Source: [Clostridium] symbiosum (GTDB lineage: Bacteria; Bacillota; Clostridia; Lachnospirales; Lachnospiraceae). Taken from it: a stretch of DNA of 32,493 nt. The DNA lies in contig JAETSN010000049.1 in NCBI GenBank assembly GCA_021769625.1, forward strand, positions 1 to 32,493, read 5' to 3'. Every line of letters starts with the position of its first letter. The first letter of the stretch is position 1. A program made the position numbers and the translations under genes. Below are positions 9,248-32,288 of the stretch, one piece after another. The notes under the pieces were generated by a model. It searched no databases. It worked only from the letters and a program-made list of their open reading frames with translations, and was not told the DNA's origin.

Positions 9248-9384
9248 GCCATGAGAATCATAAAATCCTCAAGGAGTGCCCTTGAAAAACGCCGGCACTT
9301 AGCGAGGTTCCTTACGAGCTTAGTACCGTTGCGTTTTTCACGGAGCGCAAGCGTGCCGACGGAGGATTTTATGATTCTTATGGC
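9248..9384 (+). repeat. Intergenic hairpin repeat, copy 1 (20-bp arms around a 97-nt core)
   Basis: Arms 9248-9267 and 9365-9384 are complementary over 20 bp with a single G-T pair. CTC at the start and GAG at the end of the core extend the stem. The core (9268-9364) contains its own hairpin closed by AAAAACGC and GCGTTTTT. The core is about four-fifths identical by eye to the reverse complement of 32171-32268, while the arm sequences of the two copies are unrelated. It lies between two convergent genes, where a long hairpin could act as a two-way transcript end. Confidence 0.8.
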
Positions 9385-9422
9385 GTCCGGCTATAATACA
9401 CCTCATTTATTCACGCCATATT

Positions 9423-10286
9423 TTAATCATTCGGCTTCTGATAGAACCGTCCGGTAAGCTGCTGTGTGTTCATCGTATTGATAAAAGCGCCCGGATCGAT
9501 CTGCCGGATCTTTTTGGTGATCGTCTTGATCTCATCCCTTCCCACGACGGAGTAGAGCATATTGCATTCATGCTTTCTGTAGCATCCGATTCCCTTAAAA
9601 AGCGTGGCATCATGGTTTGTATTTTCCCGGATCTGCTCATAGATCTCATCCGGTTTGGTGGTGATGATGAGCAGCGTCTGCTTCTGGTAACGCTTGTACA
9701 GGGAATGCAGGACCTGTGTGGAAGTAAACTGGAATATGATGGAATACAGCGCCTCATTCCAGCCGAACAGATAACCTGCGATCAAAAGAATAATACAGTT
9801 ACCTACAAAAATGTAATTCCATGTCTCAATACCGTACTTTTCCGAGAAAAAGATGGCGATAAAATCCGTACCGCCGCTGGTGGCGCCTGCATACAGGCAG
9901 AGGGAAATGGCACAGGCGTTTAGTATGCCGCCGAATACACTGACAAGCAGCGTATCATTTGTCACCTGAAAACCGGATAAGATATCGGTAAAAATACCGG
10001 TCAGAACGATCATCAGGCAGGAATATCCGGTAAATTTTTTCCCGATATATTTGAAACTGATCAGAACCGGTACGGCATTTAAAGAAAAATTGATCAGGGA
10101 ATAGGAAATATCGATATCCCAGAATCGTCTCGCGATCTGCTGGATCAGCAGTGTGAGACCGTTAAAACCACCGGGCAGAAGATCGCCTGCCCGCACAAAG
10201 CTTTTAATGTTCATAGCCATCAAAAAGGCGGCGGCAACGATCAGCGCCGTTCTTTTTGCATCATCCAAAACAGTGTTCTTTTTCAT
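9423..10286 (-). CDS. YitT family membrane protein (DUF161 + DUF2179)
   Basis: An integral membrane protein of 287 aa, function unknown in the family. The N-terminal two-thirds carries about five or six helices with the family pattern SFVRAGDLLPGGFNGLTLL and YAGATSGGTDFIAIF. The C-terminal DUF2179 domain (about 205-280) is soluble and includes LLIITTKPDEI and HDATLFKGIGCY. Length and domain order are typical. The start ATG 10286 is preceded by AAAGG. It begins 31 bases after the stop of the mutarotase-like gene and is probably transcribed with it from the promoter at 10990-11018. Confidence 0.92.
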   Translation of the reverse strand: MKKNTVLDDAKRTALIVAAAFLMAMNIKSFVRAGDLLPGGFNGLTLLIQQIARRFWDIDISYSLINFSLNAVPVLISFKYIGKKFTGYSCLMIVLTGIFTDILSGFQVTNDTLLVSVFGGILNACAISLCLYAGATSGGTDFIAIFFSEKYGIETWNYIFVGNCIILLIAGYLFGWNEALYSIIFQFTSTQVLHSLYKRYQKQTLLIITTKPDEIYEQIRENTNHDATLFKGIGCYRKHECNMLYSVVGRDEIKTITKKIRQIDPGAFINTMNTQQLTGRFYQKPND

Positions 10287-10317
10287 AATTGCAGTTTATG
10301 CCTTTCTGATATCTTGC

Positions 10318-10971
10318 CTATCTGCCTGCATGCCATGCCAGACGCACACTGGCGGGATGATAAGTTTCCGTGAGCCAGTCCACATCGTTTGTGATCCAGT
10401 CCATGATCTCAAGCTGTCTGGTCTCCCAGGCAACGGTTGCCATATGGGCCTTCGGTGTCTCTTCTGCTTCCATCGTAGTGTCGATCTCGTCATAGCCGAA
10501 GATGTATCCGCCTGCGCTCCAGATGCTGAAATTACTGTCCGGACCGGGATCGGGAATGCCGCCTCTCTCCGCGACGAGGACATCATGGCGGGCTTTATAT
10601 TCTTCCTCACAGCCGGGTTTTAACTTCGTCATGAACATTCTGTGGCGGATCAGTTCTTTATTCTCCCGCACTATACCGAAATTATGATACATAAGGCGCA
10701 TATTCTGCCCGGGAGTTGAGATCCATGTGATAGTGTGTTCCATCTGTGCGATCAAAGAGCCGATCTGTTCCTGCGCAAGTGTGTACAGATCCATTTCCCC
10801 TTCCGTCTCACAGTAGCCGAAGATCAGGGAAGCGCAGTTCCAGAGACTGAAATTCCGGACTTCGTTTTTGTCCAGAAATGTGGTAAGTTCCGGCCAGATC
10901 TCACCGAGTTTTTTTCGGTAAAGGTTCATCTGTCCTTTTTTTACTTCCATAGCAAAAGCATGACGTTCCAT
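10318..10971 (-). CDS. Tandem-domain L-rhamnose-mutarotase-like protein
   Basis: A cytosolic protein of 217 aa built of two copies of the RhaM/YiiL fold (about 1-103 and 108-217). RhaM interconverts the alpha and beta anomers of L-rhamnose and is normally about 104 aa. Domain 1 matches RhaM through IWPEL at 25-29 but has Leu22 where the E. coli enzyme has catalytic His22, while Tyr18 is kept. Domain 2 keeps both (Tyr125 and His129 in EYKARHD). So only the second half looks catalytically competent, and the first may have become structural or regulatory. GGAGG precedes ATG 10971. No other rhamnose genes are in the window, so the true substrate is open. It heads a two-gene unit with YitT. Confidence 0.75.
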   Translation of the reverse strand: MERHAFAMEVKKGQMNLYRKKLGEIWPELTTFLDKNEVRNFSLWNCASLIFGYCETEGEMDLYTLAQEQIGSLIAQMEHTITWISTPGQNMRLMYHNFGIVRENKELIRHRMFMTKLKPGCEEEYKARHDVLVAERGGIPDPGPDSNFSIWSAGGYIFGYDEIDTTMEAEETPKAHMATVAWETRQLEIMDWITNDVDWLTETYHPASVRLAWHAGR

Positions 10972-10989
10972 AAAGATTCCTCCAATAGT

Positions 10990-11018
10990 ATAATATAGTT
11001 TTGTTTATTGTAACACAA
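10990..11018 (-). promoter_or_regulatory. Promoter of the mutarotase-like/yitT unit
   Basis: Minus strand TTGTGT (complement of 11013-11018), a 17-base spacer and TATTAT (complement of 10990-10995), just upstream of the GGAGG of the 10971 start. Confidence 0.5.
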
Positions 11019-11035
11019 AAGAATTCTGATATAAT
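11008..11035 (+). promoter_or_regulatory. Divergent promoter for rluA-like/O-antigen-ligase-like genes
   Basis: TTGTAA (11008-11013), a 16-base spacer ending in TGA, then TATAAT (11030-11035), giving an extended -10. Its -35 box touches the -35 box of the minus-strand promoter, so the two probably compete. A leader of about 180 nt follows before the first gene. It holds no convincing coding sequence. Confidence 0.6.
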
Positions 11036-11229
11036 AAATAAAATTGAAAAAACTGAAAGAAATATTTTAAATATGATATATGGAAAAAGCTCGCAGTTTT
11101 ACAGGTCTTGTAGAGGAGGATATTTTTTGATAACATGGTATCAAAGCGGAAAGGCTATGTTTTTGACGAAATATTCTGCTCGTGGGAAATAAAGATATAT
11201 AAAATAAATGAAGCTGAAAGGTGAAAAAT

Positions 11230-11910
11230 TTGAGAGAAGATATCACGATTATTTATGAAGATAAAGACATTCTCGTCTGCAGAAAGCCTGCGGGCCTGCC
11301 GACACAGAGCGCGAGAGTATCTGCGCCGGATCTTGTCAGCGAGTTAAAAAACTATCTGGCAGAGAAAAATGAGAACTATCTGGCGGTGATCCACAGGCTG
11401 GATCAGCCCGTGGAGGGATTACTGGTTTTTGCAAAAAACAAGGAGGCGGCAAAAAATCTGAGCGGGCAGTTAAAACAGGGTGAGTTCGGAAAGGTTTATT
11501 ACGCGGTAGCCTTCAATCAGCCCCATGTGCAGGAAGGGATACTGGAAGATTATATGATAAAAGACGGCGCCCGTGCAAAGATCGTTCCGGCAGATACGCC
11601 GGGGGCAAAAAAGGCGGTGCTCCACTATAGGCTGATCGCCGTAAAACAGGGGAGGGTGCTTTATGAGGTTCGGCTGGAGACGGGAAGATTTCACCAGATC
11701 CGGGCGCAGATGGCGCATGCGGGAATGCCGATCCTGGGGGATAAAAAGTATGCGGATCCTTCGATCGTCATTTATTCGGAAGCGCACAGCATTAAGAATG
11801 TGGCGCTCTGCGCTTTTAAGCTGAAGCTGGTGCATCCAGGGACCGGTGAGGAGATGCTCTTTGTGAGTAAACCTGCGGGGGAGATTTTTAAGAGTTTTAA
11901 AAAGGAGTAA
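11230..11910 (+). CDS. RluA-family pseudouridine synthase
   Basis: An RNA-modifying enzyme of 226 aa converting uridine to pseudouridine, probably in 23S rRNA or tRNA. It has the family signature IHRLDQPVEGLLVFAKN with catalytic Asp, preceded by the fold start IIYEDKDILVCRKPAGLPTQ and followed by ETGRFHQIRAQMAHAGMPILGDKKY. It lacks the N-terminal S4 domain of RluC and RluD, like the short RluA/YjbO-type enzymes. GTG 11221 is an alternative start, but AAAGGTGA is correctly spaced for TTG 11230. The next gene begins 6 bases after its stop, so the two are co-transcribed. Confidence 0.9.
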   Translation: MREDITIIYEDKDILVCRKPAGLPTQSARVSAPDLVSELKNYLAEKNENYLAVIHRLDQPVEGLLVFAKNKEAAKNLSGQLKQGEFGKVYYAVAFNQPHVQEGILEDYMIKDGARAKIVPADTPGAKKAVLHYRLIAVKQGRVLYEVRLETGRFHQIRAQMAHAGMPILGDKKYADPSIVIYSEAHSIKNVALCAFKLKLVHPGTGEEMLFVSKPAGEIFKSFKKE

Positions 11911-11916
11911 GAACGA

Positions 11917-13779
11917 ATGGAAGCGGATCTGACGGAAAAGAGGGGAGATGTGACAGGGAAGAAAAGACAGCCGGATGTGAAAAGAGGTGCACGGTTTATC
12001 TGCAGTGCGGGCGTCTATGTGTTTCTTTTTTTCCTTGTCGGCGTCTATTCTTTCTATGCGCCGGAGGGTTATATCCAGATCGCGACAAACAAATATCTGT
12101 TTTTCAGAAAGCTTTGCCTTGCGACGGCGGCGGTCATGACGCCTTTTGTCCTATTGTATTATATATTGCCGTCAAGAGGGAAACGATGGGAAGATACAGC
12201 GGAAAAAGTTTCCATGACGGATCTGTTTATGTTTCTCTATCTGTGCCTCAATGTGATCACTTTCTATTTTACGGAATATCGGGAGGAGGCATTGTGGGGG
12301 ACGGACGGCTGGTATATGGGATTTGCCATGCAGCTCTTTTTCATAGGGATCTATTTTTTTATATCCCGGTTTTATGACGGAAGGTTTGCCGTATTGCCCC
12401 TTTTGCTGGCAGCGTCATTTCTGGTTTTTCTGTGGGGGATCTTGAACCGGTTTTCCATTTATCCGATAGATATGCAGTATGAGCATGAGCAGTTTATTTC
12501 CAGTATGGGAAATATCAACTGGTTCTGCGGCTTCTGGTCGGTATTTTTTGTGACGGGAGTGGTATTGTATGTGATCACAGAGAGGCGGTGGGTGCGTATC
12601 TTATCGGGAATCTACAGCATACTGGCGCTGGGGCTGGCTGCGGTGGAGGGGAGCGATTCCGCCTTTCTTTCGATGGGAGCCGTATTTTTCTTTTTGTTTC
12701 TTTTGGCGTTTCAGAAGACGGTTTATATGGAAAGGCTGCTTGAGCTGGGGATTTTTTACTGTGCGGCGTGTCAGGTGATGCGCGTCATTGTAAAGCTGGA
12801 CCGGGAGAGCCTCACGATGGATACCTCCACGATGTGGATGATGCTGGGGAACCTGACGCTGGCGGTGCTGATCGTATTATGTATTCTGCGGTTCCTTCTT
12901 GAGAAGGCGGATATAAAATTTAAAAAGTATACTTTTTGTAACAAAGAAGAATTACAGAAAAAGGTGTCAAAAGAAAAACCGGAAGAGATAAGACGCTCGG
13001 CCAAAAGACCAGAAGAGACGGGACGTTCAGAAAAAATGTCGAAAGAAACGGGATTATCAGATAAGGGAGCGGAAAAGATAAAGCAGCCGGAAAAAGAATT
13101 GATCCGGGAGTGGATATGGCTGAAATATGCGGTGGTAGGAATGACAGTGGCAGGCGTGGTTGTATTTCTGGCACTCCTTATCATCAACACAAGATCACCG
13201 GGCATTCTGGGGCCTTTATCCAGACATTCCATATTTTTATTTGACGGGCATTGGGGGAGCGCCCGGGGCGCCACATGGCGGGACGGGCTTGCGATCTATC
13301 AGTCCTTTTCCTGGAGGGAGAGGCTTTTCGGCGTCGGGCAGGACTGCTTTGCCGTTTACGGCTACAGCCTGCCGGAACTATCGGCGAGGCTGACGGAGGA
13401 GTGGCCAAACTCGCGGCTGACAAATGCGCACAACGAATGTCTTACGCATCTGGTGAATGTGGGGATTTTCGGGATGCTTGCTTTTATCGGCATTTTCGCG
13501 AGCAGTTTTAAGAGGCTTTTGGAGAAGGCGAAAGCGGAGCCGCTTTGCTATGTGTTTGCGGCAAGCCTGCTGTCCTATTTTATACATAATCAGTTCAGTT
13601 TTGCGCAGGTGCTGAATGTGCCGTATATTTATATGATGCTGGGACTGGGGGAGAGCCTGATGCGGAGGACGGACGCTGTCGGCGGGTCGGAAGGAAAGTC
13701 AAATTATGAGGGGAGCCTGCCTGGCAGAACGTGGAGAAGATATGACATAGGAGGCAGAGACACAAGTGTCGGGTGGTAA
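11917..13779 (+). CDS. O-antigen-ligase-like (Wzy_C) polytopic membrane protein
   Basis: A membrane protein of 620 aa with about 12 predicted helices. It resembles the O-antigen ligase/Wzy superfamily, which transfers or polymerises lipid-linked glycans at the outer face of the membrane. The diagnostic stretch is TNAHNECLTHLVNVGIFGML at about 505-525, as in the large-loop Wzy_C motif with His-Asn-Glu. A charged Lys/Glu-rich linker (about 345-397), with loosely repeated units such as RPEETGRSEK and SKETGLSDKG, interrupts the helices. AAGGAG precedes the start. No other glycan genes are adjacent, so the glycan is unknown. The ligase versus polymerase assignment is open. Confidence 0.8.
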   Translation: MEADLTEKRGDVTGKKRQPDVKRGARFICSAGVYVFLFFLVGVYSFYAPEGYIQIATNKYLFFRKLCLATAAVMTPFVLLYYILPSRGKRWEDTAEKVSMTDLFMFLYLCLNVITFYFTEYREEALWGTDGWYMGFAMQLFFIGIYFFISRFYDGRFAVLPLLLAASFLVFLWGILNRFSIYPIDMQYEHEQFISSMGNINWFCGFWSVFFVTGVVLYVITERRWVRILSGIYSILALGLAAVEGSDSAFLSMGAVFFFLFLLAFQKTVYMERLLELGIFYCAACQVMRVIVKLDRESLTMDTSTMWMMLGNLTLAVLIVLCILRFLLEKADIKFKKYTFCNKEELQKKVSKEKPEEIRRSAKRPEETGRSEKMSKETGLSDKGAEKIKQPEKELIREWIWLKYAVVGMTVAGVVVFLALLIINTRSPGILGPLSRHSIFLFDGHWGSARGATWRDGLAIYQSFSWRERLFGVGQDCFAVYGYSLPELSARLTEEWPNSRLTNAHNECLTHLVNVGIFGMLAFIGIFASSFKRLLEKAKAEPLCYVFAASLLSYFIHNQFSFAQVLNVPYIYMMLGLGESLMRRTDAVGGSEGKSNYEGSLPGRTWRRYDIGGRDTSVGW

Positions 13780-13885
13780 AAGAGTAGAGGAAGTAAAAGA
13801 GTTTTATTTCCGGCTATAAATGTGGTAATAATGCACAAAAAAACGAATAAAAAAATAGTAAAAAGGTAGAATAAGCATAAAAGAC

Positions 13886-13915
13886 TTGACAGTGACATGA
13901 ATAATAGTCTATACT
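13886..13915 (+). promoter_or_regulatory. Promoter of the PTS/dehydrogenase operon leader
   Basis: A perfect TTGACA (13886-13891), an 18-base spacer and TATACT (13910-13915). Transcription would start at about 13922, some 310 bases before the first gene. A second TATACT lies at 13921-13926 without a matched -35. The upstream part of the gap (13780-13885) is A-rich and shows no gene. Confidence 0.75.
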
Positions 13916-13921
13916 TCCACT

Positions 13922-14040
13922 ATACTTAAAAACAGTTAAACTACATACGGTTTGCGCTGACGGACCATTTTGAAAACAAGTATGTTTCGCAAAATGGAGC
14001 CAGTATTCATCAATTATTTGGTAGAATACTGGCTTTTTTT
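13922..14040 (+). ncRNA. Leader attenuator or short terminated RNA
   Basis: Between the promoter and a strong terminator lies about 118 nt of RNA. A hairpin at 13965-13997 pairs CCATTTTG with CAAAATGG, with an inner AAAC/GTTT stem. Upstream CTG (13957-13959) could pair with CAG inside the terminator arm (14001-14003), so an extended form of this hairpin would compete with termination. This fits an attenuator deciding read-through into the PTS genes, or a free-standing small RNA. No known riboswitch class was recognised. Confidence 0.5.
13998..14040 (+). terminator. Rho-independent terminator inside the PTS operon leader
   Basis: Perfect 11-bp arms (13998-14008 and 14024-14034) enclose a 15-base loop and are followed by seven T (14034-14040). 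It sits after the promoter and before the coding genes, the position of a regulated terminator. Confidence 0.88.
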
Positions 14041-14056
14041 ATGCTCGATCGTACTG

Positions 14057-14191
14057 ATCCGTGCAGAGGGAAGTGTGTAAAGAACTTCTAAGCGGTCAAA
14101 GGACACCCGCTAAGAAGTTCTAAGTTACACACTGAAGAATGCCAGGAGCAGGCATTCTTCTCACGGATTGTTTGTGCCGCCGATAGCGGCA
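14057..14191 (+). ncRNA. Structured leader element, three-way-junction-like, before PTS IIA
   Basis: An outer stem of 7 bp (14057-14063 with 14162-14168) closes two hairpins. The first is a long stem: 9 bp 14072-14080/14125-14133, 8 bp 14082-14089/14113-14120, and 5 bp 14091-14095/14107-14111. The second is a perfect 10-bp stem, 14134-14143/14151-14160. The second hairpin begins on the base after the first ends. A further 6-bp hairpin (14175-14180/14186-14191) follows, 44 bases before the IIA start. There is no ORF with a credible ribosome site. It could be a cis-regulatory RNA or a folded repeat element. Confidence 0.6.
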
Positions 14192-14234
14192 TGGCGGGAA
14201 GTTTGTAGTAAAACTGGGAAATGAGGAGAAGGGT

Positions 14235-14642
14235 ATGTTTGATGTGATTGTAGTTTCCCACGGAGACTTATCGAAAGCTATAGTGGAGACGGCACAGATG
14301 ATCGTAGGGGGACAGGAGGCAGTGGAAACTTTCGGATTGTATCCGGGGGACAGCGTGGATTTATTTCGGGAGCGGGTCACCGAGGCCATCAGGGAGCATC
14401 TTGTACACAGTGATGTGATGGTGGTGACGGATATGCAGTCTGGCAGTCCGTTCAATGTGGCAGTGAGCGCTATGGAAGAGCACAGGTTTCGGCATTTTAC
14501 CGGTATGAATCTGCCGATGCTTCTGGAGATTTTTTCAAGCCGCCCCTTCTTGTCACTGGAGGAGGTGAGCGAAGAACTGGTCGGCAAAACGACGGAAACC
14601 ATTTTAGATGTAAATAAATTTTTGGAGGAAATGGAAATTTAA
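14235..14642 (+). CDS. PTS mannose/fructose/sorbose family IIA component
   Basis: A cytosolic phosphocarrier of 135 aa. It accepts phosphate from HPr on His9 in VVSHGDLSKAIVE and passes it to IIB. Full length for a stand-alone mannose-family IIA, with the typical DMQSGSPFNVA segment. The start ATG 14235 follows GGAGAAGGG. It is the first gene after the structured leader, and the IIB gene starts about 20 bases later. This heads a complete IIA-IIB-IIC-IID set. Confidence 0.94.
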   Translation: MFDVIVVSHGDLSKAIVETAQMIVGGQEAVETFGLYPGDSVDLFRERVTEAIREHLVHSDVMVVTDMQSGSPFNVAVSAMEEHRFRHFTGMNLPMLLEIFSSRPFLSLEEVSEELVGKTTETILDVNKFLEEMEI

Positions 14643-14662
14643 TAAGAGAGGGGGTGATGGCG

Positions 14663-15139
14663 ATGAAAAACATGGTTTTGATCCGGATCGACGACCGTCT
14701 GATTCATGGGCAGGTCGTGACGCAGTGGATCAAAGACACCAATGGCAACAGAATACTGATAGTGGATAATGAACTGGTAGGTAACCGGATGATGCAGCGT
14801 ATCCTGAAAGCGGCGGCGCCGCCCGGCATCAAAGTGGAAGTCCTGACGGTGGACGATGCGGTGGCGGAATGTAAGAAAGATGCGGTTCCGGGAGAGAACA
14901 TCGTAATTCTGGTGAAATATCCGGAGGTGCTGGAGAAAATGCTGGATGCCGGTGTTTCGATGAAAAAAATTGTGTTGGGTGGAATGGGACTGACGGCAAA
15001 CCGGAAGAAATTCAACAAAAATGTGGCGGCGTCAGAGGAAGAGGTTGCCTGTATGAAACGGATCGTGTCAAAAGGGGTTACGATGGAATTTCAATTAGTT
15101 CCGGCGGAAAGAGCAGTCAACGTGGAAAAACTATTTTAG
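14663..15139 (+). CDS. PTS mannose/fructose/sorbose family IIB component
   Basis: A cytosolic IIB of 158 aa that transfers phosphate to the incoming sugar. The active-site His15 lies in the family hallmark RIDDRLIHGQVVTQW. Other conserved stretches are ILIVDNELVGNRMMQRILKAAAPPG and a C-terminal EFQLVPAE. In-frame GTG 14654 and ATG 14657 exist, but AGGGGGTG is correctly placed for ATG 14663, which also puts the motif at its usual distance from the N-terminus. It lies between IIA and IIC in the operon. Confidence 0.94.
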   Translation: MKNMVLIRIDDRLIHGQVVTQWIKDTNGNRILIVDNELVGNRMMQRILKAAAPPGIKVEVLTVDDAVAECKKDAVPGENIVILVKYPEVLEKMLDAGVSMKKIVLGGMGLTANRKKFNKNVAASEEEVACMKRIVSKGVTMEFQLVPAERAVNVEKLF

Positions 15140-15159
15140 AAAAACAGGAGGGAAAGATT

Positions 15160-15921
15160 ATGGCTTTATGGCAAGCAATACTATGTGGTATTTTTTATTA
15201 TCTGAATGCCGGACCGTGGGTGTGCGGTATCGGATTTTATACGTTCGGACGTCCGATGGTTCTGGGATTTTTTGTAGGATTGGTGTTGGGGGATCCTGTC
15301 ACGGGTACGATCGTGGGAGCGACGATCCAGATGATCTATCTGGGGCTTATGTCAACAGGCGGTTCCTATCCGGCAGATTCTTCCCTGGCGGGGATCATCG
15401 GAACGGCGGCGGCCATCACAACCGGATTGTCGGCACAGGAAGCGATCGCCATTGCGGTTCCCATCGGCCTGATCGGTACGATCTTCTATCAGCTCCGTAT
15501 GGTGAGCGCGGTGCCCTGTACGCATCTTGCGGATAAATATGCGGCAGAGGGAAAACCGGAAAAAGTCTGGATCGCAAACGTGGCGATCCCGCAGGTGATC
15601 CTGGCGGCGATTTATGTCATTCCGTGTACGCTGGCATGCTATTTCGGAATCGGCGCAGTACAGGGAATCGTGGATGCATGTGAAGGCACAAGGATCCTGA
15701 GCATCTTAAGTGCGATCGGCGGGATCCTCCCTGCGATCGGTATCGCGATGAATATGAAAGCTATCTTCAAAGGGGATGCAAGATATTTCTTCTTCATCGG
15801 ATTTTTGCTGGTTGTTTATTTCAACCTCGATCTGATCGGGATCGGCGCTCTGGCGGCTCTGATGGCGATCATTTATATCCAGCTGAAAAAAAATAACGAT
15901 AAGGAGGCGGAAGAAGCATGA
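15160..15921 (+). CDS. PTS mannose/fructose/sorbose family IIC component
   Basis: A membrane permease subunit of 253 aa that forms the sugar channel with IID. It shows the family pattern of hydrophobic segments and the conserved GLVLGDPVTGTIVGATIQMIYLG at about 40-62, with GGSYPADSSLAGIIGTA following. AGGAGG precedes ATG 15160. The last four bases overlap the IID start (ATGA), which signals translational coupling. Confidence 0.94.
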   Translation: MALWQAILCGIFYYLNAGPWVCGIGFYTFGRPMVLGFFVGLVLGDPVTGTIVGATIQMIYLGLMSTGGSYPADSSLAGIIGTAAAITTGLSAQEAIAIAVPIGLIGTIFYQLRMVSAVPCTHLADKYAAEGKPEKVWIANVAIPQVILAAIYVIPCTLACYFGIGAVQGIVDACEGTRILSILSAIGGILPAIGIAMNMKAIFKGDARYFFFIGFLLVVYFNLDLIGIGALAALMAIIYIQLKKNNDKEAEEA

Positions 15922-16757: not shown

Positions 16758-16786
16758 AACAGGACATTGTAAGGAGGAAAATATAA

Positions 16787-17968: not shown

Positions 17969-17985
17969 AGGAGAGGAGCGATAAA

Positions 17986-19020: not shown

Positions 19021-19050
19021 TTAGTTATAAACGGCTGCCGGCATCTTTCT

Positions 19051-19079
19051 TTGTATTTTATATGGTAATACTTTACATA
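19051..19079 (+). promoter_or_regulatory. Possible internal promoter before the embedded two-component genes
   Basis: TTGTAT (19051-19056), a 17-base spacer and TACATA (19074-19079) in the 88-base gap before the histidine kinase. This is the longest gap inside the operon. Match to consensus is moderate. Confidence 0.35.
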
Positions 19080-19108
19080 ATGAATCGTATGGGAAGGAGC
19101 AAAGAGGC

Positions 19109-21773: not shown

Positions 21774-21815
21774 AAGGCGTTTGAACAATCTGAAGACCAC
21801 AGAAAGGCGGATCAT

Positions 21816-22121: not shown

Positions 22122-22382
22122 AGCTAATAAAGACATTAAGGATAAGAAGAGAGCACCACTTTGCATGAGGATATTGTTTGCGATAAAACAAAATCCGGGC
22201 AGAGAAAGGTGCTTTCTGCGATTAATGGTATCTGATATTTCCATGCAGGTAATTTGCAATATCATTGCAGGAAAAGTTCTTGTCTTACTTCCTGTTTTAA
22301 AGTATAATTTCCCTAAAGCAGTCACAGGCACACAGGGAGATGGAAACTCTGCAAATATCAGGAAAGGGGAATGCGGCAGTAA
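22122..22382 (+). other. Intergenic gap with imperfect hairpin and a promoter
   Basis: No ORF is credible here. AGCACC (22151-22156) can pair with GGTGCT in the region 22208-22213, with partial pairing inside. This is a weak terminator candidate for the PTS operon. A sigma-A-type promoter follows at 22280-22308. Confidence 0.35.
22280..22308 (+). promoter_or_regulatory. Promoter of the AAA/PD-(D/E)XK gene
   Basis: TTGTCT (22280-22285), a 17-base spacer and a perfect TATAAT (22303-22308), 75 bases before the start codon. Confidence 0.65.
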
Positions 22383-23966: not shown

Positions 23967-24044
23967 TATGGAATTGTAAATGCGAATTTACCGGTTTTGG
24001 TGAATAATAAAATATAAGGAAAGAAAGACAAAGGAGATAAAGAA

Positions 24045-25475: not shown

Positions 25476-25476
25476 A

Positions 25477-26829
25477 GTGCAGAAAGAGATACGGATCACT
25501 TTGCCTGAGCAGGTAACATTTATCATTAATACATTGAATCAGGCGGGGTTTGAGGCCTACGCGGTGGGCGGCTGTGTGCGTGATTCCATCATGGAGCGGA
25601 CGCCGGACGACTGGGATATCACTACCTCCGCCGATCCCCAGCAGGTGAAAAAGCTGTTCCGTAGGACGGTGGATACCGGCATTCAGCATGGAACTGTCAC
25701 GGTCATGCTGCAAAAAAACGGTTATGAGGTGACGACTTATCGGATTGACGGGGAATACGAGGACAACAGGCATCCGAAGGAGGTCATTTTTACAAAGTCT
25801 CTGAAGGAGGATTTAAAGCGGCGGGATTTCACGGTAAACGCGATGGCGTATCATCCGAAAGAGGGTTTGGTGGATCTTTTTGACGGCATCGGCGATATGG
25901 AGAGAAAATGTATCCGGTGCGTGGGCTGCGCGGAGGAGAGGTTTTCGGAGGATGCACTGCGGATGATGCGCGGGGTGCGGTTTTCGGCACAGTTCGGCTA
26001 TGAGATAGAGGAAGAGACGAGGAAAGCGATCCGGAAACTGAAGAATAATCTGAGGAGCGTCAGCGCGGAACGGATCCGGGTGGAACTGGTGAAGCTGCTC
26101 TTATCACCTCATCCTGATTATCTGCGGGAGGCGTATGAGCTGGGTATCACAAAAGTTATCCTGCCGGAGTTTGATGTCTGTATGGAAACACCCCAGCACA
26201 ATCCGCACCACTGTTACAGTGTGGGGGAGCACACGCTGGAGGGATTAAAGCTTGTCAGGGCGGATAAAGTGCTGCGGCTCGCCATGCTGCTGCATGATAT
26301 CGGGAAACCCCTGACGAAAACAACGGATGCAAACGGAAAAGACCATTTTAAGAAGCATCCGCGGGAAAGCGCAAGGCTTGCGAATGATATTCTGCGCAGG
26401 TTAAAATTCGACAATGATACATTGAAAAAAGTCTGCCGGCTGGTGGAATATCACGACTGGTCCATCGATCTGGAGGAGGACGTTAAGATATCCACAGTAC
26501 GGCGGCTCATAGCCGGGATCGGGGAGGATGCGTTTCCGGATATGTTTGAGATCAACCGGGCGGACCTTCTATCCCAGAGCGCCTACCTGAGGGAGGAAAA
26601 ACTGGCGAAACAGGAGCGCCTTGAGTCTTTATACCGGGAGATCATGGAAAAACAGGAGTGCCTGTCTCTGAAAGATCTTTCTGTCGGAGGAAAGGATTTA
26701 CTGGCGCAGGGCATGAAACCCGGCAGGGAATTGGGGAATATATTGCAGCGGATGCTGGCGGATGTTCTGGAGGATCCTGCGCATAATAAAAAAGAGTATT
26801 TATTGGAAAATTTAAATCTATATTTATAA
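25477..26829 (+). CDS. cca: CCA tRNA nucleotidyltransferase
   Basis: A cytosolic enzyme of 450 aa of the class II nucleotidyltransferase superfamily that adds or repairs the 3' CCA end of tRNAs. The head domain has AVGGCVRD at 29-36 and the metal-binding DWD (Asp45, Asp47) in DDWDITT. The neck follows with RRDFTVNAMAY and the RMMRGVRFSAQFG stretch. The second half carries an HD phosphohydrolase domain with YSVGEHTLEG and LLHDIGKP, as in HD-bearing CCA enzymes. Codons are open upstream to 25393 inside proS, but GTG 25477, after GGGGGAAGG, gives the normal N-terminus. It is coupled to proS, a tRNA-maturation pairing. Confidence 0.92.
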   Translation: MQKEIRITLPEQVTFIINTLNQAGFEAYAVGGCVRDSIMERTPDDWDITTSADPQQVKKLFRRTVDTGIQHGTVTVMLQKNGYEVTTYRIDGEYEDNRHPKEVIFTKSLKEDLKRRDFTVNAMAYHPKEGLVDLFDGIGDMERKCIRCVGCAEERFSEDALRMMRGVRFSAQFGYEIEEETRKAIRKLKNNLRSVSAERIRVELVKLLLSPHPDYLREAYELGITKVILPEFDVCMETPQHNPHHCYSVGEHTLEGLKLVRADKVLRLAMLLHDIGKPLTKTTDANGKDHFKKHPRESARLANDILRRLKFDNDTLKKVCRLVEYHDWSIDLEEDVKISTVRRLIAGIGEDAFPDMFEINRADLLSQSAYLREEKLAKQERLESLYREIMEKQECLSLKDLSVGGKDLLAQGMKPGRELGNILQRMLADVLEDPAHNKKEYLLENLNLYL

Positions 26830-26888
26830 CATACTTCGCCCTTTTGTTTCATAAGATAGGTTATGAACAATTTCAGGAGGCTTGCATT

Positions 26889-27881
26889 GTGAAACCGAAG
26901 GCAGTAAATGTGTTGGAGAGGTATGACCTGGAAGTGCTTCGTACCTGGAAGGTGCGGGGCGCTATTCTTTGTGAGAGTGATAAAGGGCTTTTTATATTAA
27001 AAGAATTCGGCGGGCGTGAGGAAAAGCTTCTGCTTCAGGACGCATTTTTGACCTTTATCAAACAGCAGGGCTTTTTGCAGGCGGAAGAACTTTTCAGAAA
27101 CAGGGACGGGGAGCTGTTGACCCGGGATGCGGAGGGAACCGGTTATATTGTAAAGACCTATGTGGAAGGCAGGGAGTGCAGTGCGGGAGGCGGCAGGGAA
27201 TCTCTGGCGGATGGTTGTGCCGCGATGCGCACACTGGCGAGGCTGCATAAGATAAGCGGCGATTTTGAGTATTCTTCTGACAGGGGAGGAAAGCGGGAGG
27301 GACTCATCCTTCAGGAATTTGAGAAACATAACCGGGAGCTGAAAAAGGTACGCCGGTTTTTGAAGGAGAAGAGCCAGAAAAACGATTTTGAACATTTTCT
27401 GCAGCAGCATTTTGATCTGTTTCTGGAACAGGCGCTGGCTGTTTCAGAGAAGCTGCGGGGACAGGAAGCTGAAGATGGGAGCATGATCTTATGTCATGGA
27501 GATTTCCAGTATCACAATGTACTGTTTTGTGAAAACGGCATCCGGTTCATGAATTTTGAAAAGTGTATCTGGGATAATAAGAGCAGGGATATTTATCATT
27601 TCAGCCGGAAGATGCTGGAAAAGAATAACTGGGCGGCAGAAACAGGGGAGGCTCTGCTGGGAGCCTATGAAAGGGAACTGCCCCTTACGGCAGCGGACGG
27701 CAGGATACTTTATTATCGTTTCAGTTATCCGGAGAAATTCTGGAAGATTGTAAATTATTATTTTAATAGAGGGAAGGCGTTTATTCCGGATAAAAACAGA
27801 GAAAAACTGGAAGTACTTTTGGAACAGGAACAGAAAAGGACGGATTTCATCAGAAATGTGATAGGAAGAAAGTTCTTGTAG
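26889..27881 (+). CDS. CotS/YsxE-like spore-coat kinase-fold protein
   Basis: A protein of 330 aa with the aminoglycoside-phosphotransferase/choline-kinase fold, resembling spore coat proteins CotS, CotI and YsxE. The catalytic loop is CHGDFQYHNVLF (His203, Asp205, Asn210). The later metal-binding position, usually Asp in a DFD/DFE motif, is Asn222 in FMNFEKC, so activity may be reduced or lost. A TTG at 26844 opens the frame, but CAGGAGG is spaced for GTG 26889. The neighbouring downstream gene is a lipoprotein. A spore-coat role is inferred from family resemblance and suggests an endospore former. Confidence 0.8.
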   Translation: MKPKAVNVLERYDLEVLRTWKVRGAILCESDKGLFILKEFGGREEKLLLQDAFLTFIKQQGFLQAEELFRNRDGELLTRDAEGTGYIVKTYVEGRECSAGGGRESLADGCAAMRTLARLHKISGDFEYSSDRGGKREGLILQEFEKHNRELKKVRRFLKEKSQKNDFEHFLQQHFDLFLEQALAVSEKLRGQEAEDGSMILCHGDFQYHNVLFCENGIRFMNFEKCIWDNKSRDIYHFSRKMLEKNNWAAETGEALLGAYERELPLTAADGRILYYRFSYPEKFWKIVNYYFNRGKAFIPDKNREKLEVLLEQEQKRTDFIRNVIGRKFL

Positions 27882-27962
27882 AAGAACGCGGCCGATATTC
27901 CGGATATGTCAGAAGATCATGCCGGAAGGTATCTGCCGGATCAGAATAAAAGGAGCAGCGCG

Positions 27963-29408
27963 GTGAGAGAACGAAGGAGAAAAAAAAGAGTATGCAGTAT
28001 CATATTTTTACTTGGACTGCTGTGTCTGACAGCCTGTGGAAAACAGGAGACAGAAGAGGAAAAGGATACCGGATTTGTGCCGGCTGCAACAGGCGTTTTT
28101 GATTCGGCGGATACGGCTGTTGTGGCTGAGATCGATATGGACGAAAAGACCATCTCCCTTAAAAATATGGATAAAAAGCGGCAGTATACACTCTCTTATG
28201 ACGGAACGACATTTTTTTATGACAAATATGGTAAAGTGATCTCCATCACGCAGCTGCAAAAAGGGGAGATCGTGGATGTCACGTTCTTCAGAGAGAAAAA
28301 ACGTCTGAATACGCTGCAGATTTCCGGAGATGCATGGACACACAAGTATATTGATGAGTATAAATTAAATGAAGAAAGATTTCAGGCGGAGATCGGTTCC
28401 GCCATATATGCCTATTCGGAAGATACGGTTGTCATATCGGACGGAAAACAGGGGGATCTGATCGATATCAATCCTGTTGATGTATTGACATTCAGGGGAA
28501 TGGGTTCGGACGTTTACAGTATCGTGGTGGAGAGAGGACACGGCTATGTGCGGCTGAAGAACGAAGAATATTTTTACGGCGGCTGGATCGAGATCGGCAA
28601 TAAAACGATCCAGAAGGTATCCGACGGTATGATGCTGACCGTGCCCGAAGGGAGCCATCAGGTCATCATCAGCAACAAGGGGACAAGCGGCGTCAAACAG
28701 ATCGAAGTCCGCAAAGACATGGAACTGGAACTGGATGTGGGGGATCTGAAGGGGGAAGAACCGAAATACGGAACTGTGATATTCACGATCACGCCGGAGG
28801 ATGCGACGCTTTATCTGGATGGAGAGAAAACGGACTATCAAATGCCAGTGCGGCTGGAAGTAGGGATCCATCAGATGATCGTGATGGCGGACGGCTATGA
28901 TACGGTGAGCCAGTATCTGAAGGTGGGAGAGGCGTCTGCCGGTATCGAAGTGGAGATGAAAGCGAAAGAGGATGTTTCCGGCAATGACGTCTCGGGGAAT
29001 GATATCCTTTCGGACAATGAGATACTGGATGAAGTGAACCGGATCCTGAATGAGAAAGGGTACAGCGGGATCACGGCGGATGAGCTGGCGGGAAATTATA
29101 ACAGTACGGAACAGAGCGGAACGGATAACAGCACCGGGACAGATAATACGGCAGGAAACAATCAGACGAATACGCCTGTGACAAGTACGCTTTCCTATTA
29201 TGTGACGATAGAGGCGCCCATCGGCGTGGAGATCTATCTCGACGGAAATTATATCGGGATCACGCCGTGCAGCTTTAAGAAAGATACGGGGTCGCATACG
29301 CTGACGCTGCGGAAGACAGGATATGTGGCGAAATCCTACACGATACAGGTGGATGAGGAGCAGAAGAATGTGAGTTATTCGTTCCTGGATCTGGTGAAGA
29401 TTGAGTAG
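27963..29408 (+). CDS. PEGA-domain surface lipoprotein
   Basis: An exported lipoprotein of 481 aa. A basic N-terminus (RERRRKKR), hydrophobic segment and lipobox LTAC (Cys25) direct lipid attachment outside the membrane. Residues 40-300 are beta-rich and unrecognised. They are followed by a PEGA repeat at about 262-320 (TPEDATLYLDGEKT, VMADGYDTV), a low-complexity Asn/Thr/Gly linker, and a second PEGA domain at about 405-470 (GVEIYLDGNYIGITPC, TLRKTGYVAKSY). ATG 27906 is in frame but lacks a ribosome site. AAAAGGAG sits 7 bases before GTG 27963. PEGA domains are common in surface proteins and cell-envelope sensors. The specific function is unknown. Confidence 0.88.
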   Translation: MRERRRKKRVCSIIFLLGLLCLTACGKQETEEEKDTGFVPAATGVFDSADTAVVAEIDMDEKTISLKNMDKKRQYTLSYDGTTFFYDKYGKVISITQLQKGEIVDVTFFREKKRLNTLQISGDAWTHKYIDEYKLNEERFQAEIGSAIYAYSEDTVVISDGKQGDLIDINPVDVLTFRGMGSDVYSIVVERGHGYVRLKNEEYFYGGWIEIGNKTIQKVSDGMMLTVPEGSHQVIISNKGTSGVKQIEVRKDMELELDVGDLKGEEPKYGTVIFTITPEDATLYLDGEKTDYQMPVRLEVGIHQMIVMADGYDTVSQYLKVGEASAGIEVEMKAKEDVSGNDVSGNDILSDNEILDEVNRILNEKGYSGITADELAGNYNSTEQSGTDNSTGTDNTAGNNQTNTPVTSTLSYYVTIEAPIGVEIYLDGNYIGITPCSFKKDTGSHTLTLRKTGYVAKSYTIQVDEEQKNVSYSFLDLVKIE

Positions 29409-29446
29409 GGGTTGGGAGCGATTAAAGGCGGACGCAGGTAAGAACA

Positions 29447-29520
29447 TAAAATGCTTCGTCGCCACGCTTGCGCGGCTCTGTTCTTCAAGAGCCTGTGAAA
29501 GAGTGCAGCAAATGCGCAGT
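29447..29520 (+). repeat. Possible degenerate copy of the intergenic hairpin repeat
   Basis: Bases from about 29457 (CTTCGTCGCCACGCTTGCG) resemble the plus-strand start of the core at 32171 (CTCCGTCGCCGCGCTCTCG). Similarity then fades, and no complementary 20-bp arms are seen. It lies in the 165-base gap after the PEGA gene. Confidence 0.3.
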
Positions 29521-29573
29521 CCTGATTGAAGGTTGAGACTTTTACAGTAAATATGTTCGGAGGTATAAATAAT

Positions 29574-29846
29574 ATGATGTATCCATATATGACGTTAAAC
29601 GATGATACGGAGATTACCCATTCTGAGATGAAACCGGATGGGAGTGTAAAAGTATATATAGAAACACCCGATGAAAAAGTGTGTTTCCGTCATGCTACAT
29701 GTTGGCTGCCAGAATATAGATGGGAAGATATATATGCGTATTCTAAGGAAGAAATCGGAAGGTTTCAGGAAATTATTGAGTCCAGTGCGCATTTGATTTT
29801 GGAATTTTCGCAGGAAGGGGGATTTGATAATGCCTCAAATCTTTAG
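29574..29846 (+). CDS. Small unknown protein paired with a DUF4160 remnant
   Basis: A soluble acidic protein of 90 aa, family not firmly recognised. The C-terminal half has ATCWLPEYRWEDIYAYS and a helix ending in SSAHLILEFSQEGG. GGAGG lies 9 bases before ATG 29574, which is preferred over TTG 29526. Its end overlaps the start of the DUF4160 remnant by 17 bases. DUF4160 genes often pair with a small DUF2442-type partner in toxin-antitoxin-like loci, so this may be the surviving partner. Confidence 0.6.
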   Translation: MMYPYMTLNDDTEITHSEMKPDGSVKVYIETPDEKVCFRHATCWLPEYRWEDIYAYSKEEIGRFQEIIESSAHLILEFSQEGGFDNASNL

Positions 29847-30013
29847 AATCGGATCTTACTGGATTTATTTTTGGGCAAACGAAAATGAGCCGTTGGAGCC
29901 TGTGCATGTCCATGTATCGGAAGGAAGGCCCAATGCGGATGATAGAAGCCCGCAGTAAAGAAATAATAGATAAATGGTGTGAGTATTTTGGAGAGATAAA
30001 TTATTATTGTTAA
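29830..30013 (+). pseudogene. DUF4160 gene broken by an internal deletion/frameshift
   Basis: The first frame (29830-29958) encodes MPQIFRIGSYWIYFWANENE and then EPVHVHVSEGRPNA, a typical DUF4160 N-terminus with its His motif. It shifts at about 29937 and stops after 42 residues. A second frame (29939-30013) continues with MIEARSKEIIDKWCEYFGEI, which looks like the family's C-terminus. The middle is missing (about 30 residues by comparison with the family as I remember it). The gene is therefore probably inactive. Confidence 0.65.
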
Positions 30014-30052
30014 TATACATAAAATTTGGAATCAGGTAGAGAAAAAAAGAAA

Positions 30053-30772
30053 ATGGGTGAAAAGTATAATTTTGAGGATTTTGTTAAGATAATAGAGAGA
30101 TTGCGGGCGAAGGACGGGTGTCCCTGGGACAGGGAGCAGACCCATGACAGTTTAAGGCCCTGTATGATGGAGGAGGCGGCGGAGTTTGTGAGCTCGGTCC
30201 GGATCTACCATGAGAGCGGCAGCGCGGAGAATATGCGGGAGGAGCTGGGAGATATTCTGCTGCAGGTGGTGATGCACAGCGTGATCGCGGAGGAAGAAGG
30301 GCTCTTTACGCTGGGGGATGTGATAGAGGAAGTGTCGGAGAAGATGATAAGGCGGCATCCCCATATTTTTGGAGCGGCGGAGGTGGATTCCTCGGAGCAG
30401 GTACTGCAGAACTGGGATGAGATCAAGAAGAAGGAGAAGGAAGGGAAAAGCTGGATCGAATCACCGCTTCGGGAGATTCCGAAGGAACTGCCCTCCCTCA
30501 CAAGGGGACCAAAGGTGTTGAAAAAGATAGACAAGCTCTATGAAGCGGCGCCGTCCCGGGAGGAGACGGCAGAAAAATTGTTGGAAACGGTGAGAGAGCT
30601 TTCTGCCTGCAGTGAAGAGACAGAGAAAGAAAAGACGGAGCAGCTGCTGGGGGATGCCCTGCTTGGCATTTGTGAGATCGCGAGGAGGGAGAAGATACCG
30701 GCAGAGCAGGTATTGATGGACAGGATAGAAGAGCTGATAGAACAAAAAGAGGGAAAAAGGGCGGACAGATAA
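30053..30772 (+). CDS. mazG: MazG-type nucleoside triphosphate pyrophosphohydrolase
   Basis: A cytosolic house-cleaning enzyme of 239 aa that hydrolyses NTPs or dNTPs to monophosphates and pyrophosphate. The N-terminal MazG domain has LRAKDGCPWDREQTHDSL, the metal-binding MEEAAEF helix and REELGDILLQVVMHS, followed by KMIRRHPHIFG and WDEIKKKEK. The C-terminal half is a weaker MazG-like helical repeat. TTG 30026 opens the frame, but ATG 30053 gives the normal N-terminus. It follows the DUF4160 remnant by 40 bases. No neighbour suggests a special role. Confidence 0.9.
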   Translation: MGEKYNFEDFVKIIERLRAKDGCPWDREQTHDSLRPCMMEEAAEFVSSVRIYHESGSAENMREELGDILLQVVMHSVIAEEEGLFTLGDVIEEVSEKMIRRHPHIFGAAEVDSSEQVLQNWDEIKKKEKEGKSWIESPLREIPKELPSLTRGPKVLKKIDKLYEAAPSREETAEKLLETVRELSACSEETEKEKTEQLLGDALLGICEIARREKIPAEQVLMDRIEELIEQKEGKRADR

Positions 30773-30814
30773 CATATATAGATAAAATAATGGATAAAAT
30801 AAAAGAATTTTTTA

Positions 30815-30843
30815 TTGTAACATAGTGTGGAAAAAGATAGAAT
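30815..30843 (+). promoter_or_regulatory. Promoter of galK
   Basis: TTGTAA (30815-30820), a 17-base spacer and TAGAAT (30838-30843) in the 186-base AT-rich gap before galK. The leader is about 110 bases. Confidence 0.55.
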
Positions 30844-30958
30844 TAGGGTAGACAGGATGGTAAATGGAATGAAATAGATATATGGAGAGAGTTCCGGCAG
30901 GAGAAGCGGATAATGAGCGGGATTTTTAAAGCAGACAAACAACAGGAGGAGGGTTTAA

Positions 30959-32122
30959 ATGAAAGAAAAACTATTGCGGAAGTTTGAGGAACTATTCGGA
31001 GATGCGGAGGGTGTGAAAGTGTATTTTGCCCCGGGGCGCGTCAACCTGATCGGAGAGCACACGGACTACAACGGCGGCCATGTATTTCCCTGTGCGCTGA
31101 CCATCGGTACATACGGTGCGGCGAGAAAAAGGAACGATAATAAGCTGCATTTTTATTCCATGAATTTTGACAGGGTGGGGGTGCAGGAATCGGCGGTGGA
31201 TGCGCTCGGCGAGGCGAAAGAATCCGACTGGACAAACTATCCCAAGGGGGTGATCTGGGCCTTTGCGAAAAGGGGTTTTGAGATGCCCTGCGGTATGGAT
31301 CTTGTTCTATTCGGCAATATACCGAACGGTTCCGGCTTGTCTTCTTCCGCCTCTCTCGAAGTGCTGACAGGCTTTATTCTGCGTGATTTGTACGGGTTCG
31401 ATGTGACTAATGTGGATCTGGCGCTGATCGGGCAGTACGCCGAGAACAATTATAACGGGATGAACTGCGGTATCATGGATCAGTTTGCCTCCGCCATGGG
31501 GAAAAAGGATCACGCGATTTTCCTTGATACGGCGGATCTGTCCTATGAGTATGCGCCGATCGTTCTGGATGGGGCGAAGATCGTGGTGACCAACAGCAAG
31601 GTGAAGCACAGCCTTGTGAACTCCGCTTATAACCAGAGGAGAAGCGAGTGCGAGACCGCGCTGGCGGAACTGCAGAATGTTGTGGATATCAAAGGGCTCG
31701 GGGATCTGAGCGAGGAGGCGTTTGAGAAGCATAAAGGAGCGATCAGGGATGAGGTGCGGGTGCGCCGTGCAAAACATGCGGTGTACGAGAACCAGAGAAC
31801 GATCCGCGCGGTGGAGGCGCTGAAAAACAATGATATCAAGCTGTTCGGCGAACTTATGAACGCTTCTCATGTCTCCCTGCGGGATGATTATGAGGTGTCC
31901 TGTGAGGAGATCGATATTCTGGTGGATGAGGCATGGAAGATCCCGGGCGTGATCGGCTCCCGTATCACCGGCGGCGGTTTCGGCGGCTGTACCGTGAGCA
32001 TTGTGAAAGATGAGGCGATCGATACCTTTAAGGAGCAGGTTGAAAAGGCTTATGAGGAGAAGACAGGGAAGACGGCTGAGTTTTATATTGTGGAAGTAGG
32101 GGACGGGCCGTACATTTTGTAA
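30959..32122 (+). CDS. galK: Galactokinase
   Basis: A cytosolic GHMP kinase of 387 aa that phosphorylates alpha-D-galactose to galactose 1-phosphate, the first step of the Leloir pathway after mutarotation. The signature APGRVNLIGEHTDYNGG is at about 25-41, the ATP-binding GSGLSSSASLEVL at about 126-138, the catalytic region with GMNCGIMDQFASAMG, and the C-terminal RITGGGFGGCTVSIV. Full length. CAGGAGGAGGG directly precedes ATG 30959. galT follows in the same direction after 228 bases containing a hairpin repeat. Confidence 0.97.
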   Translation: MKEKLLRKFEELFGDAEGVKVYFAPGRVNLIGEHTDYNGGHVFPCALTIGTYGAARKRNDNKLHFYSMNFDRVGVQESAVDALGEAKESDWTNYPKGVIWAFAKRGFEMPCGMDLVLFGNIPNGSGLSSSASLEVLTGFILRDLYGFDVTNVDLALIGQYAENNYNGMNCGIMDQFASAMGKKDHAIFLDTADLSYEYAPIVLDGAKIVVTNSKVKHSLVNSAYNQRRSECETALAELQNVVDIKGLGDLSEEAFEKHKGAIRDEVRVRRAKHAVYENQRTIRAVEALKNNDIKLFGELMNASHVSLRDDYEVSCEEIDILVDEAWKIPGVIGSRITGGGFGGCTVSIVKDEAIDTFKEQVEKAYEEKTGKTAEFYIVEVGDGPYIL

Positions 32123-32150
32123 AATGAGGACTGCGTTTTGACAAGAGTCC

Positions 32151-32288
32151 GCCCGGATGAAAATATAATTCTCCGTCGCCGCGCTCTCGCTCTGCGAAAA
32201 ACGCAGCGGGCACTAAGTTCGTGAGAGACCTCACTAAGTGCTGGCGTTTTTCGAAGGCACTCCTTGAGAATTATATTCCCATCCGGGC
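32151..32288 (-). repeat. Intergenic hairpin repeat, copy 2 (20-bp arms around a 98-nt core)
   Basis: Arms 32151-32170 and 32269-32288 are complementary over 20 bp with two mismatches, both G-U compatible when the minus strand is read. The core (32171-32268) is a diverged inverted copy of 9268-9364. Its inner hairpin is closed by a 10-bp perfect stem, CGAAAAACGC with GCGTTTTTCG. It separates galK from galT. Confidence 0.8.

Follow-up and report, generated by a model that had tools for sequence, protein, structure and literature searches.

A dispersed REP/BOX-like hairpin repeat with co-varying arms, often found behind stop codons, in [Clostridium] symbiosum and other Lachnospiraceae

We analysed a contig of [Clostridium] symbiosum (JAETSN010000049.1, assembly GCA_021769625.1, positions 1 to 32,493 of the forward strand); the window means this whole stretch of 32,493 nucleotides. 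The window carries two copies, A and B, of an intergenic hairpin repeat, and we think it reasonably likely that the family is a lineage-specific, mobile and structured repeat, similar to the repetitive extragenic palindromic (REP) and BOX repeats, that is kept as a hairpin at gene ends, a function that we infer from sequence. With well over 100 copies in one gut-bacterial genome, the family bears on genome assembly, as some contigs end in copies, and on how genes end in these bacteria. It matches the covariance model described below in 54 of 150 sampled genera of Lachnospiraceae, that of [C.] symbiosum included, and has no matching Rfam model. It also gives Lachnospiraceae a REP-like system in which a function at gene ends can be tested.

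Copies, arms and head of the repeat family

A first-pass annotation of the window had described two intergenic copies at 9248-9384 (+) and 32151-32288 (-), with cores about 80% alike. Both copies are real, and a DNA search aligned them with 82% identity across 113 bases. In the genome that holds the window (G000, whose copies are called own copies below), a DNA search with copy A gave 69 rows from 40 scored candidates, several being self-complement rows of one place, and a search with copy B gave 48 rows. A covariance model (R1) was built from an alignment of 42 non-redundant own copies, which match it by construction, and found 148 matches among the 150 candidates scored in G000; more may exist beyond those. 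Because six of the matches are contig-end pieces that are identical in three pairs, the matches represent perhaps 145 distinct places. Of the 148 places, all of which were read, eight were set aside as incomplete or odd (contig-end pieces and two broken copies); the other 140 own copies measure 98-218 bases by the model. The hairpins are mostly about 140-220 bp, with a modular conserved core and long co-varying arms. The assembly breaks inside repeat copies at the contig ends C16, C51, C84, C85, C98 and C126 of G000, where the broken pieces are identical in pairs. Closely spaced copies of opposite orientation occur at C38_110952/111227, C38_35192/35380 and C123_29975/30171.

To count the arms, copies with fewer than 16 Watson-Crick pairs in 20 were dropped (3 of 140 own; 11 of 252 overall). 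In the remaining 137 own copies, 2681 of 2740 arm positions were Watson-Crick pairs, 36 were G-U, 16 A-C and 7 other, and these copies have 87 distinct left arms and 89 perfect arm pairs. The two arms of one copy pair on average at 19.5 of 20 positions, compared with 13.1 for arms taken from different copies. In the 42-copy alignment, 98.2% of the cells pair, against a mean of 85.2% after shuffling (0 of 500 shuffles were as high) and 38-53% when one side was slid by 1-3 columns; its consensus fold has 46 pairs, 28 of which have both sides changed in at least one sequence. With up to 2 mismatches allowed, arm pairing reaches up to 69 positions in other genera. The co-variation across copies bears out the earlier proposal that the hairpin itself is maintained while its letters change. 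The first-pass annotation had staked that reading on further genomic copies with complementary flanks; many copies were found, and their flanks pair.

Its picture of the arms needs revision in other respects. The arms of A and B had been called unrelated, but the left arm of A still pairs with the right arm of B at 12 of 20 positions. Nor are the arms locally unique, because they fall into subfamilies; A is one of 7 among the 140 own copies that have exactly the same left arm. The 20-bp complementarity described for A and B holds, but not as an exact limit, since pairing runs on into the core edge for about 22-23 positions. An alternative offered there was that the element is inserted into, or generates, local palindromes. 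We ruled out local palindromes as the source of the arms because the arm sequences recur at unrelated sites in subfamilies, inherited with the element. A few copies sit between the halves of a GTAACAGTTCAGCC palindrome outside their ends; the GTAACAGTTCAGCC / GGCTGAACTGTTAC palindrome stands around C32_13669, C97_10074 and C141_39889 and is perhaps another repeat serving as target. Two dropped own copies, C92_1588 and C38_21679, join the left arm of one subfamily to the right arm of another and are apparently recombinants between subfamilies.

Among the 900 pair cells of 45 young-subfamily copies, 54 were changed on both sides yet remained Watson-Crick pairs, 34 by transition-type and 20 by transversion-type changes, and 42 of the 54 fall at positions 3 and 6. 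One-sided changes were found in 24 cells (18 G-U, 4 A-C and 2 other). We also compared the flanks of 65 congeneric copies (50 from congener G006, 14 from G001 and 1 from G004) with those of own copies; both flanks were colinear for 11 G006 and 3 G001 copies, and one flank for locus L388. Five same-type orthologous comparisons, picked by eye for alike arms and with two sharing one own copy, had 11 of 110 arm pairs changed on both sides, 6 of these 11 by transversion type, and 1 changed on one side. Ten other orthologous copies have, judged by eye, arms of different types at the shared location; hence replacement of the element, or several insertions at a single site, appears to be common. Orthologous copies of this kind are replicates for the long-open question of whether compensatory stem changes pass through G-U intermediates under selection or arise by one-step hairpin-templated mutation. 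Two attempts to call the strand of the hairpin were given up: the G-U and A-C counts were too weak and the data sets disagree, and folding energy was not decisive (mean -77.2 kcal/mol for the + strand and -74.8 for the reverse, with the reverse lower in 41 of 140).

The head of the core, CTT(A/G)..GAGG-loop-CGA..(T/C)TAG, could be parsed in 185 of the 252 copies (own, congeners and other species). Its inner helix is Watson-Crick in 550 of 555 cells, a figure that is partly built in, as the search pattern itself fixes some letters. A GNNA loop stands in frame in 173 of the 185 parsed copies, and all 173 are GNRA; 12 copies are without it. As RNA, the head is a helix with a U-U mismatch and CGAG/CGAG, which we take to be a tandem-GA motif. 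The heads are exchangeable: some own copies have GGCGCT...AGCGCC, others long ATGTGAAATTT...AAATTTCACAT hairpins, and others an additional GGCTCTTGAAAAACAGAGCC hairpin. The CTTAG-CGAG / CGAG-CTTAG head recurs across genera. In other species, small hairpins have the same CTTAGCGAGG/CGAGCTTAG head without long arms (L301, L306, L256, L282 and L312, plus L283, L305 and L311), some in tandem and in both orientations, and some near TATAAT-like boxes or rRNA or tRNA genes. They stand before various ORFs (open reading frames), three of which resemble ribosomal proteins L6 and L1 by eye, and are possible processing, antitermination or protein-binding sites.

Eight congeners, G001, G004, G005 and G006 among them, were compared, and their matches at E <= 1e-4 numbered 79 (G006), 29 (G001), 11, 7, 5, 5, 3 and 0, G005 having 5. 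A sample of relatives had matches in 20 of 61 genomes, and in 0 of the 24 among these that lie outside Lachnospiraceae. The pattern CTTAGCGAGGTN{4,7}CGAGCTTAG occurred in at least 114 stretches of genome_contigs. The 80 loci among the pattern matches listed bear mostly Lachnospiraceae names (we presume this family for part of the genera), with some Clostridia, Eubacteriales and Clostridiaceae and one Bacteroides-labelled bin. Among these 80 loci the covariance model gave 61 matches, and 47 of them, at 39 loci, form the other-species set after 14 cut, partial, weak or reverse-strand matches were dropped. Carriage by viruses or plasmids was rejected: viral_contigs had 0 exact matches to the same pattern, and phages and plasmids gave no blastn match at E <= 1e-5. 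Rfam 15 had 0 matches in the window at the gathering score, the best sub-threshold matches of copy A being two miRNA models, and at E <= 1 no Rfam match fell on repeat copies in five other loci. We found no prior description of the family in the accessible parts of the open-access literature.

Insertion, divergence and position at gene ends

The youngest subfamily has inverted ends, CAATGTCATTTAGTTA, outside the arms (consensus CAATGTCATTTAGTTAACACC on the left and CATTAACTAAATGACATTG on the right), and of 139 copies examined, 17 retain both ends in recognisable form. Of these 17 testable copies, 5 lie between perfect direct repeats of 9 or 10 bases (score at least 7) and 12 have none at that score, which 3.5% of mispaired controls reach. 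For copy C80_6758, the left flank matches congener G005 up to query base 576 and the right flank from base 825 at adjoining coordinates, an empty site. In G005, inverted CAATGTCATTTAGATA ends lie 1680 bp apart and enclose an intact 437-aa transposase of the IS4 family (NCBIfam NF033592, 2.4e-49; Pfam PF01609, 2e-24), and the ends of the young subfamily have 15 of 16 bases in common with the ends of this element. By these sequence signs, the youngest subfamily is a miniature transposon. The first-pass annotation had reasoned that differing arms exclude a mobile repeat with fixed ends, but the youngest copies do have fixed ends; because these lie outside the arms, the mobile unit is longer than the core plus arms described there. 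We propose that an IS4-type transposase, seen intact only in a congener, mobilised the young subfamily in trans. A protein search found a full copy and a fragment of the transposase in G005 and a 46% relative in G003. Mobilisation by a RAYT (REP-associated tyrosine transposase) was rejected, because the numbers of Y1_Tnp matches do not track those of repeat matches: 1 against 148 in the own genome, 0 against 29 in G001, 1 partial against 79 in G006 and 13 against 5 in G005. At C119:47941 (L218) of the own genome, a solo fusion of both inverted ends (about 27 bp) was seen by eye in the loop of a terminator-like hairpin, AAAGAGCAGC...GCTGCTCTTT.

Once a copy has inserted, its outer ends appear to decay while the core and the arm pairing are kept. 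The young copies (n = 47) diverge from their consensus by 18% at the left end, 32% at the right end and 0.9% in the first 27 core bases, where 7 of 1242 sites differ when copies with 8 or more differences are left out. In two older subfamilies (15 and 26 copies), divergence is 8-11% in the 5' core, 7% in a 15-base stretch of the 3' core, 28-35% at the left end and 42-52% at the right end, and unrelated-flank controls diverge by 61-71%. That the ends required for transposition decay more quickly than the hairpin makes selection on the hairpin in place probable. Core gene conversion might account for this as well, though the arms would then be expected to even out too.

Gene context was read by a simple longest-ORF rule. 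In 94 of the 140 own copies the right-hand gene lies on the opposite strand; the median distance to its stop is 16 nt, and 85 of these stops fall within -15..50 nt. A left-hand gene ends toward the element in 41 of the 140, and in 14 of them no more than 50 nt away. Counting both sides, 90/140 own, 29/50 G006, 10/15 G001 and G004 and 22/47 other-species copies have a gene end within -15..50 nt, all raw counts without a random-intergenic background rate. Own copies between tandem genes are more often antisense ('--', 65) than sense ('++', 16) to them (p = 4e-8), and an alternative ORF rule gave 76 '--', 19 '++', 19 '+-' and 21 '-+' among the 140 own copies. Stop-codon proximity recurs between genomes, whereas the orientation bias does not. 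Since many copies stand just behind a stop codon, a gene-end structure seems the likeliest job of the repeat. The hairpin would fold at the 3' end of the message, where it would help to end or separate transcription units, block 3' exonucleases, or both. Known REP and terminator-like repeats are thought to act as such gene-end structures. As far as the accessible parts of two reports tell, REPs of two proteobacteria lie near ORF 3' ends, often within less than 20 bp (PMC3733652), and E. coli REPs at most 15 nt from a stop codon are reported to reduce translation (PMC12306157).

The site of copy A differs between congeners. Between the same convergent genes, G006 (locus L476) has a 34-bp hairpin with a different short head and the same GTCCG edge, perhaps from a related repeat family, and G004 has a terminator-like hairpin followed by T5; in G001 the gap is shorter.

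Competing explanations and known systems

A terminator role is possible for the repeat, and the first-pass annotation had proposed a two-way transcript terminator; that the family is a dispersed two-way intrinsic terminator, in which the inner GC-rich hairpin and its T-tract stop transcription from both neighbours, seems to us conceivable but somewhat unlikely. Of 131 own copies that could be parsed (9 could not), 111 have a GC-rich hairpin with at least 4 T behind it on the reverse strand, the strand read in the same sense as the usual right-hand gene, and 78 have one on both strands, as do 55 of 60 parsed congeneric copies (5 unparsed). A terminator-like site lies inside 30 of the 85 copies behind a stop codon by our own scan, and G004 and G006 have hairpins of their own at the site of copy A. 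On the other hand, retention of the T-run is not significantly higher on the side of a facing gene end (78/88 vs 33/43, p = 0.12; 22/37 vs 56/94, p = 1.0), the own GCAGC-type subfamily is without the T-tract, and only 11 of 25 other-species copies (22 unparsed) have it on both strands, with 14 lacking it on one or both. Within 180 nt downstream of the element, terminator-like sites are about as frequent as at control genes (15/85 vs 63/308), and a consensus terminator scan gave one weak site in copy A and none in copy B. The conserved head might instead be what matters: CUUAG-CGAG / CGAG-CUUAG with the adjacent GNRA loop would be a protein- or nuclease-binding module of RNA or single-stranded DNA that is spread by the repeat, the arms only presenting it. 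The recurrence of the head across genera, and of the armless small hairpin near promoter-like boxes and in rRNA and tRNA regions of other species, is consistent with such a module. We nevertheless doubt it, as unrelated hairpin modules replace the head in many own copies, the G006 hairpin at the site of copy A lacks it, and the small hairpin occurs in both orientations relative to its neighbours. We know of no protein that binds the head.

The repeat could also be a selfish miniature transposon without host function, the arms being kept by hairpin-templated DNA correction and gene ends being where insertions survive. The inverted ends, target duplications and empty site are what such an element would leave, and the double arm changes that include transversion types, in the young subfamily and at orthologous sites alike, and the near balance of G-U and A-C in the arms also favour it. 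Pneumococcal repeats are enriched between convergent genes, which the available part of the report interprets as tolerance (PMC3049150). What makes this account unlikely is that, in the same copies, the transposition ends have diverged so much further than the first 27 core bases, and that loop variation is restricted to GNRA. On the reading that we favour, arm complementarity would be kept partly by selection and probably also by correction of one arm from the other in a DNA hairpin during replication (template switching). The nearly even G-U and A-C counts speak against selection that acts only on RNA pairing, and the restriction of loops to GNRA speaks against maintenance purely at the DNA level. 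A more elaborate reading seems improbable as a whole, namely that both arms change together in single steps by hairpin-templated correction, with pair positions 3 and 6 nearly free beside a nearly fixed 5' core, and that the repeat also disperses a lineage-wide CUUAG-CGAG / CGAG-CUUAG RNA module that leaders of stable RNAs and other leaders use as well and that, placed at gene ends, would be a portable site for binding or processing.

Several observations weigh against a mobile repeat that is kept as a gene-end hairpin. The location at gene ends may merely reflect tolerance of insertions there, and the tandem orientation bias is not significant elsewhere (21 vs 16 in G006, 7 vs 2 in G001 and G004, 15 vs 13 in other species). 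The core is unevenly constrained, as a 15-base 3' stretch of it, including part of the variable tetraloop, has diverged by 8.1% in the young subfamily. A protein search of the own draft genome found no copy of the IS4 transposase. The first-pass annotation had taken every exception to arm pairing as G-U; this is true of copies A and B, but not across the 241 of 252 copies counted, with 66 G-U, 42 A-C and 31 other cells. G-U is only weakly in excess of A-C (p = 0.026) and in congeners numbers 12 against 17, a weaker excess than expected if the stems were selected purely as RNA. Finally, it is the strand antisense to the usual neighbouring gene that bears the GNRA and tandem-GA signs.

Among known systems, a REP-like element or mobile hairpin, which the first-pass annotation had listed as a candidate, remains the best class. 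Judged from its letters, the family works like REP and BOX repeats, but it lacks the tag and the RAYT link of REPs and has no matching Rfam model for the copies tested. REPs and bacterial interspersed mosaic elements (BIMEs) of the GTAG and CGTC families are, as here, many intergenic hairpins per genome with copy numbers that vary between relatives, and according to the accessible part of one report (PMC3733652) they lie near ORF 3' ends. In contrast, REPs measure 20-40 bp, have stems of 5-13 bp and bear a GTAG or CGTC tag that is unpaired, the GTAG ones being tied to RAYT, while the present repeats are mostly about 140-220 bp with stems usually of at least 20 bp and a modular core, and their copy number does not track Y1 transposases. 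The left tetramer is GTAG in 3/137 own, 6/62 congeneric and 3/39 other copies; CGTCCG stands on the right in 109/137 own copies, yet its C is paired and the stems are about 20 bp or longer. The BOX, SPRITE and RUP repeats of Streptococcus pneumoniae, as described in the available part of the report (PMC3049150), are structured and resemble miniature inverted-repeat transposable elements (MITEs); BOX is modular and, like RUP, has inverted ends and target duplications, and SPRITE is terminator-like. The present family, compared with them by description and not by sequence, differs in its extensive arm co-variation, its heads, which are exchanged hairpin modules, and its host group.

The youngest subfamily also resembles an IS4-family MITE in its ends and its 9-10-bp target duplications, as do the own copies in their shortness and copies A and B in their lack of coding capacity, but older subfamilies keep the hairpin with largely decayed ends and no autonomous partner was found in the own draft genome. 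RNA hairpins attributed to template switching (Monttinen and Loytynoja 2022, PMC8794818) are likewise kept perfect by compensatory changes, also of several bases. As far as the accessible text goes, the process was inferred there in RNA genes, whereas here it would act in a dispersed repeat with orthologous sites as replicates.

Positions in the window

The features of copies A and B are given in Table 1. According to the ORF list of the window, no ORF of at least 80 aa overlaps either copy. At most a remnant of the terminal inverted repeats is kept in the two copies. The inner stem-loop of copy A, with a GC-rich stem between A5 and T5 tracts, is terminator-like on both strands.

Table 1. Parts and neighbours of the two repeat copies in the window
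Feature	Position	Strand	Basis
Copy A, full model extent (left edge ACCA, arms, core, right edge GTCCG)	9244..9389	+	R1 match of 159.3 bits (G000:C19:9244-9389); copy A is also in the model alignment
Copy A, left arm	9248..9267	+	Pairs with 9365-9384: 19 Watson-Crick and 1 G-U of 20
Copy A, right arm	9365..9384	+	Partner of 9248-9267
Copy A, inner stem-loop GAAAAACGC...GCGTTTTTC with CTTAG-CGAG/CGAG-CTTAG head	9284..9339	+	Sequence; helix 3 pair counts; T-run counts
Copy A, GNRA-type tetraloop (GCAA) in AGC-GNRA-GCG	9347..9350	+	Sequence; family survey
Copy A, left terminal inverted repeat, degenerate remnant TCAGTTAGCACCTTA	9229..9243	+	Comparison by eye with subfamily consensus CAATGTCATTTAGTTAACACC
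Copy B, full model extent	32146..32292	-	R1 match of 149.4 bits (G000:C19:32146-32292:-); copy B is also in the model alignment
Copy B, left arm (element orientation)	32269..32288	-	With 32151-32170: 18 Watson-Crick and 2 G-U of 20
Copy B, right arm (element orientation)	32151..32170	-	Partner of 32269-32288
ORF beside copy A, stop 20 nt before it	8501..9223	+	ORF list
Convergent ORF beside copy A, stop 33 nt behind it	9423..10286	-	ORF list
ORF beside copy B, stop 23 nt before it; copy B is antisense to the ORF	30959..32122	+	ORF list; gene-context count

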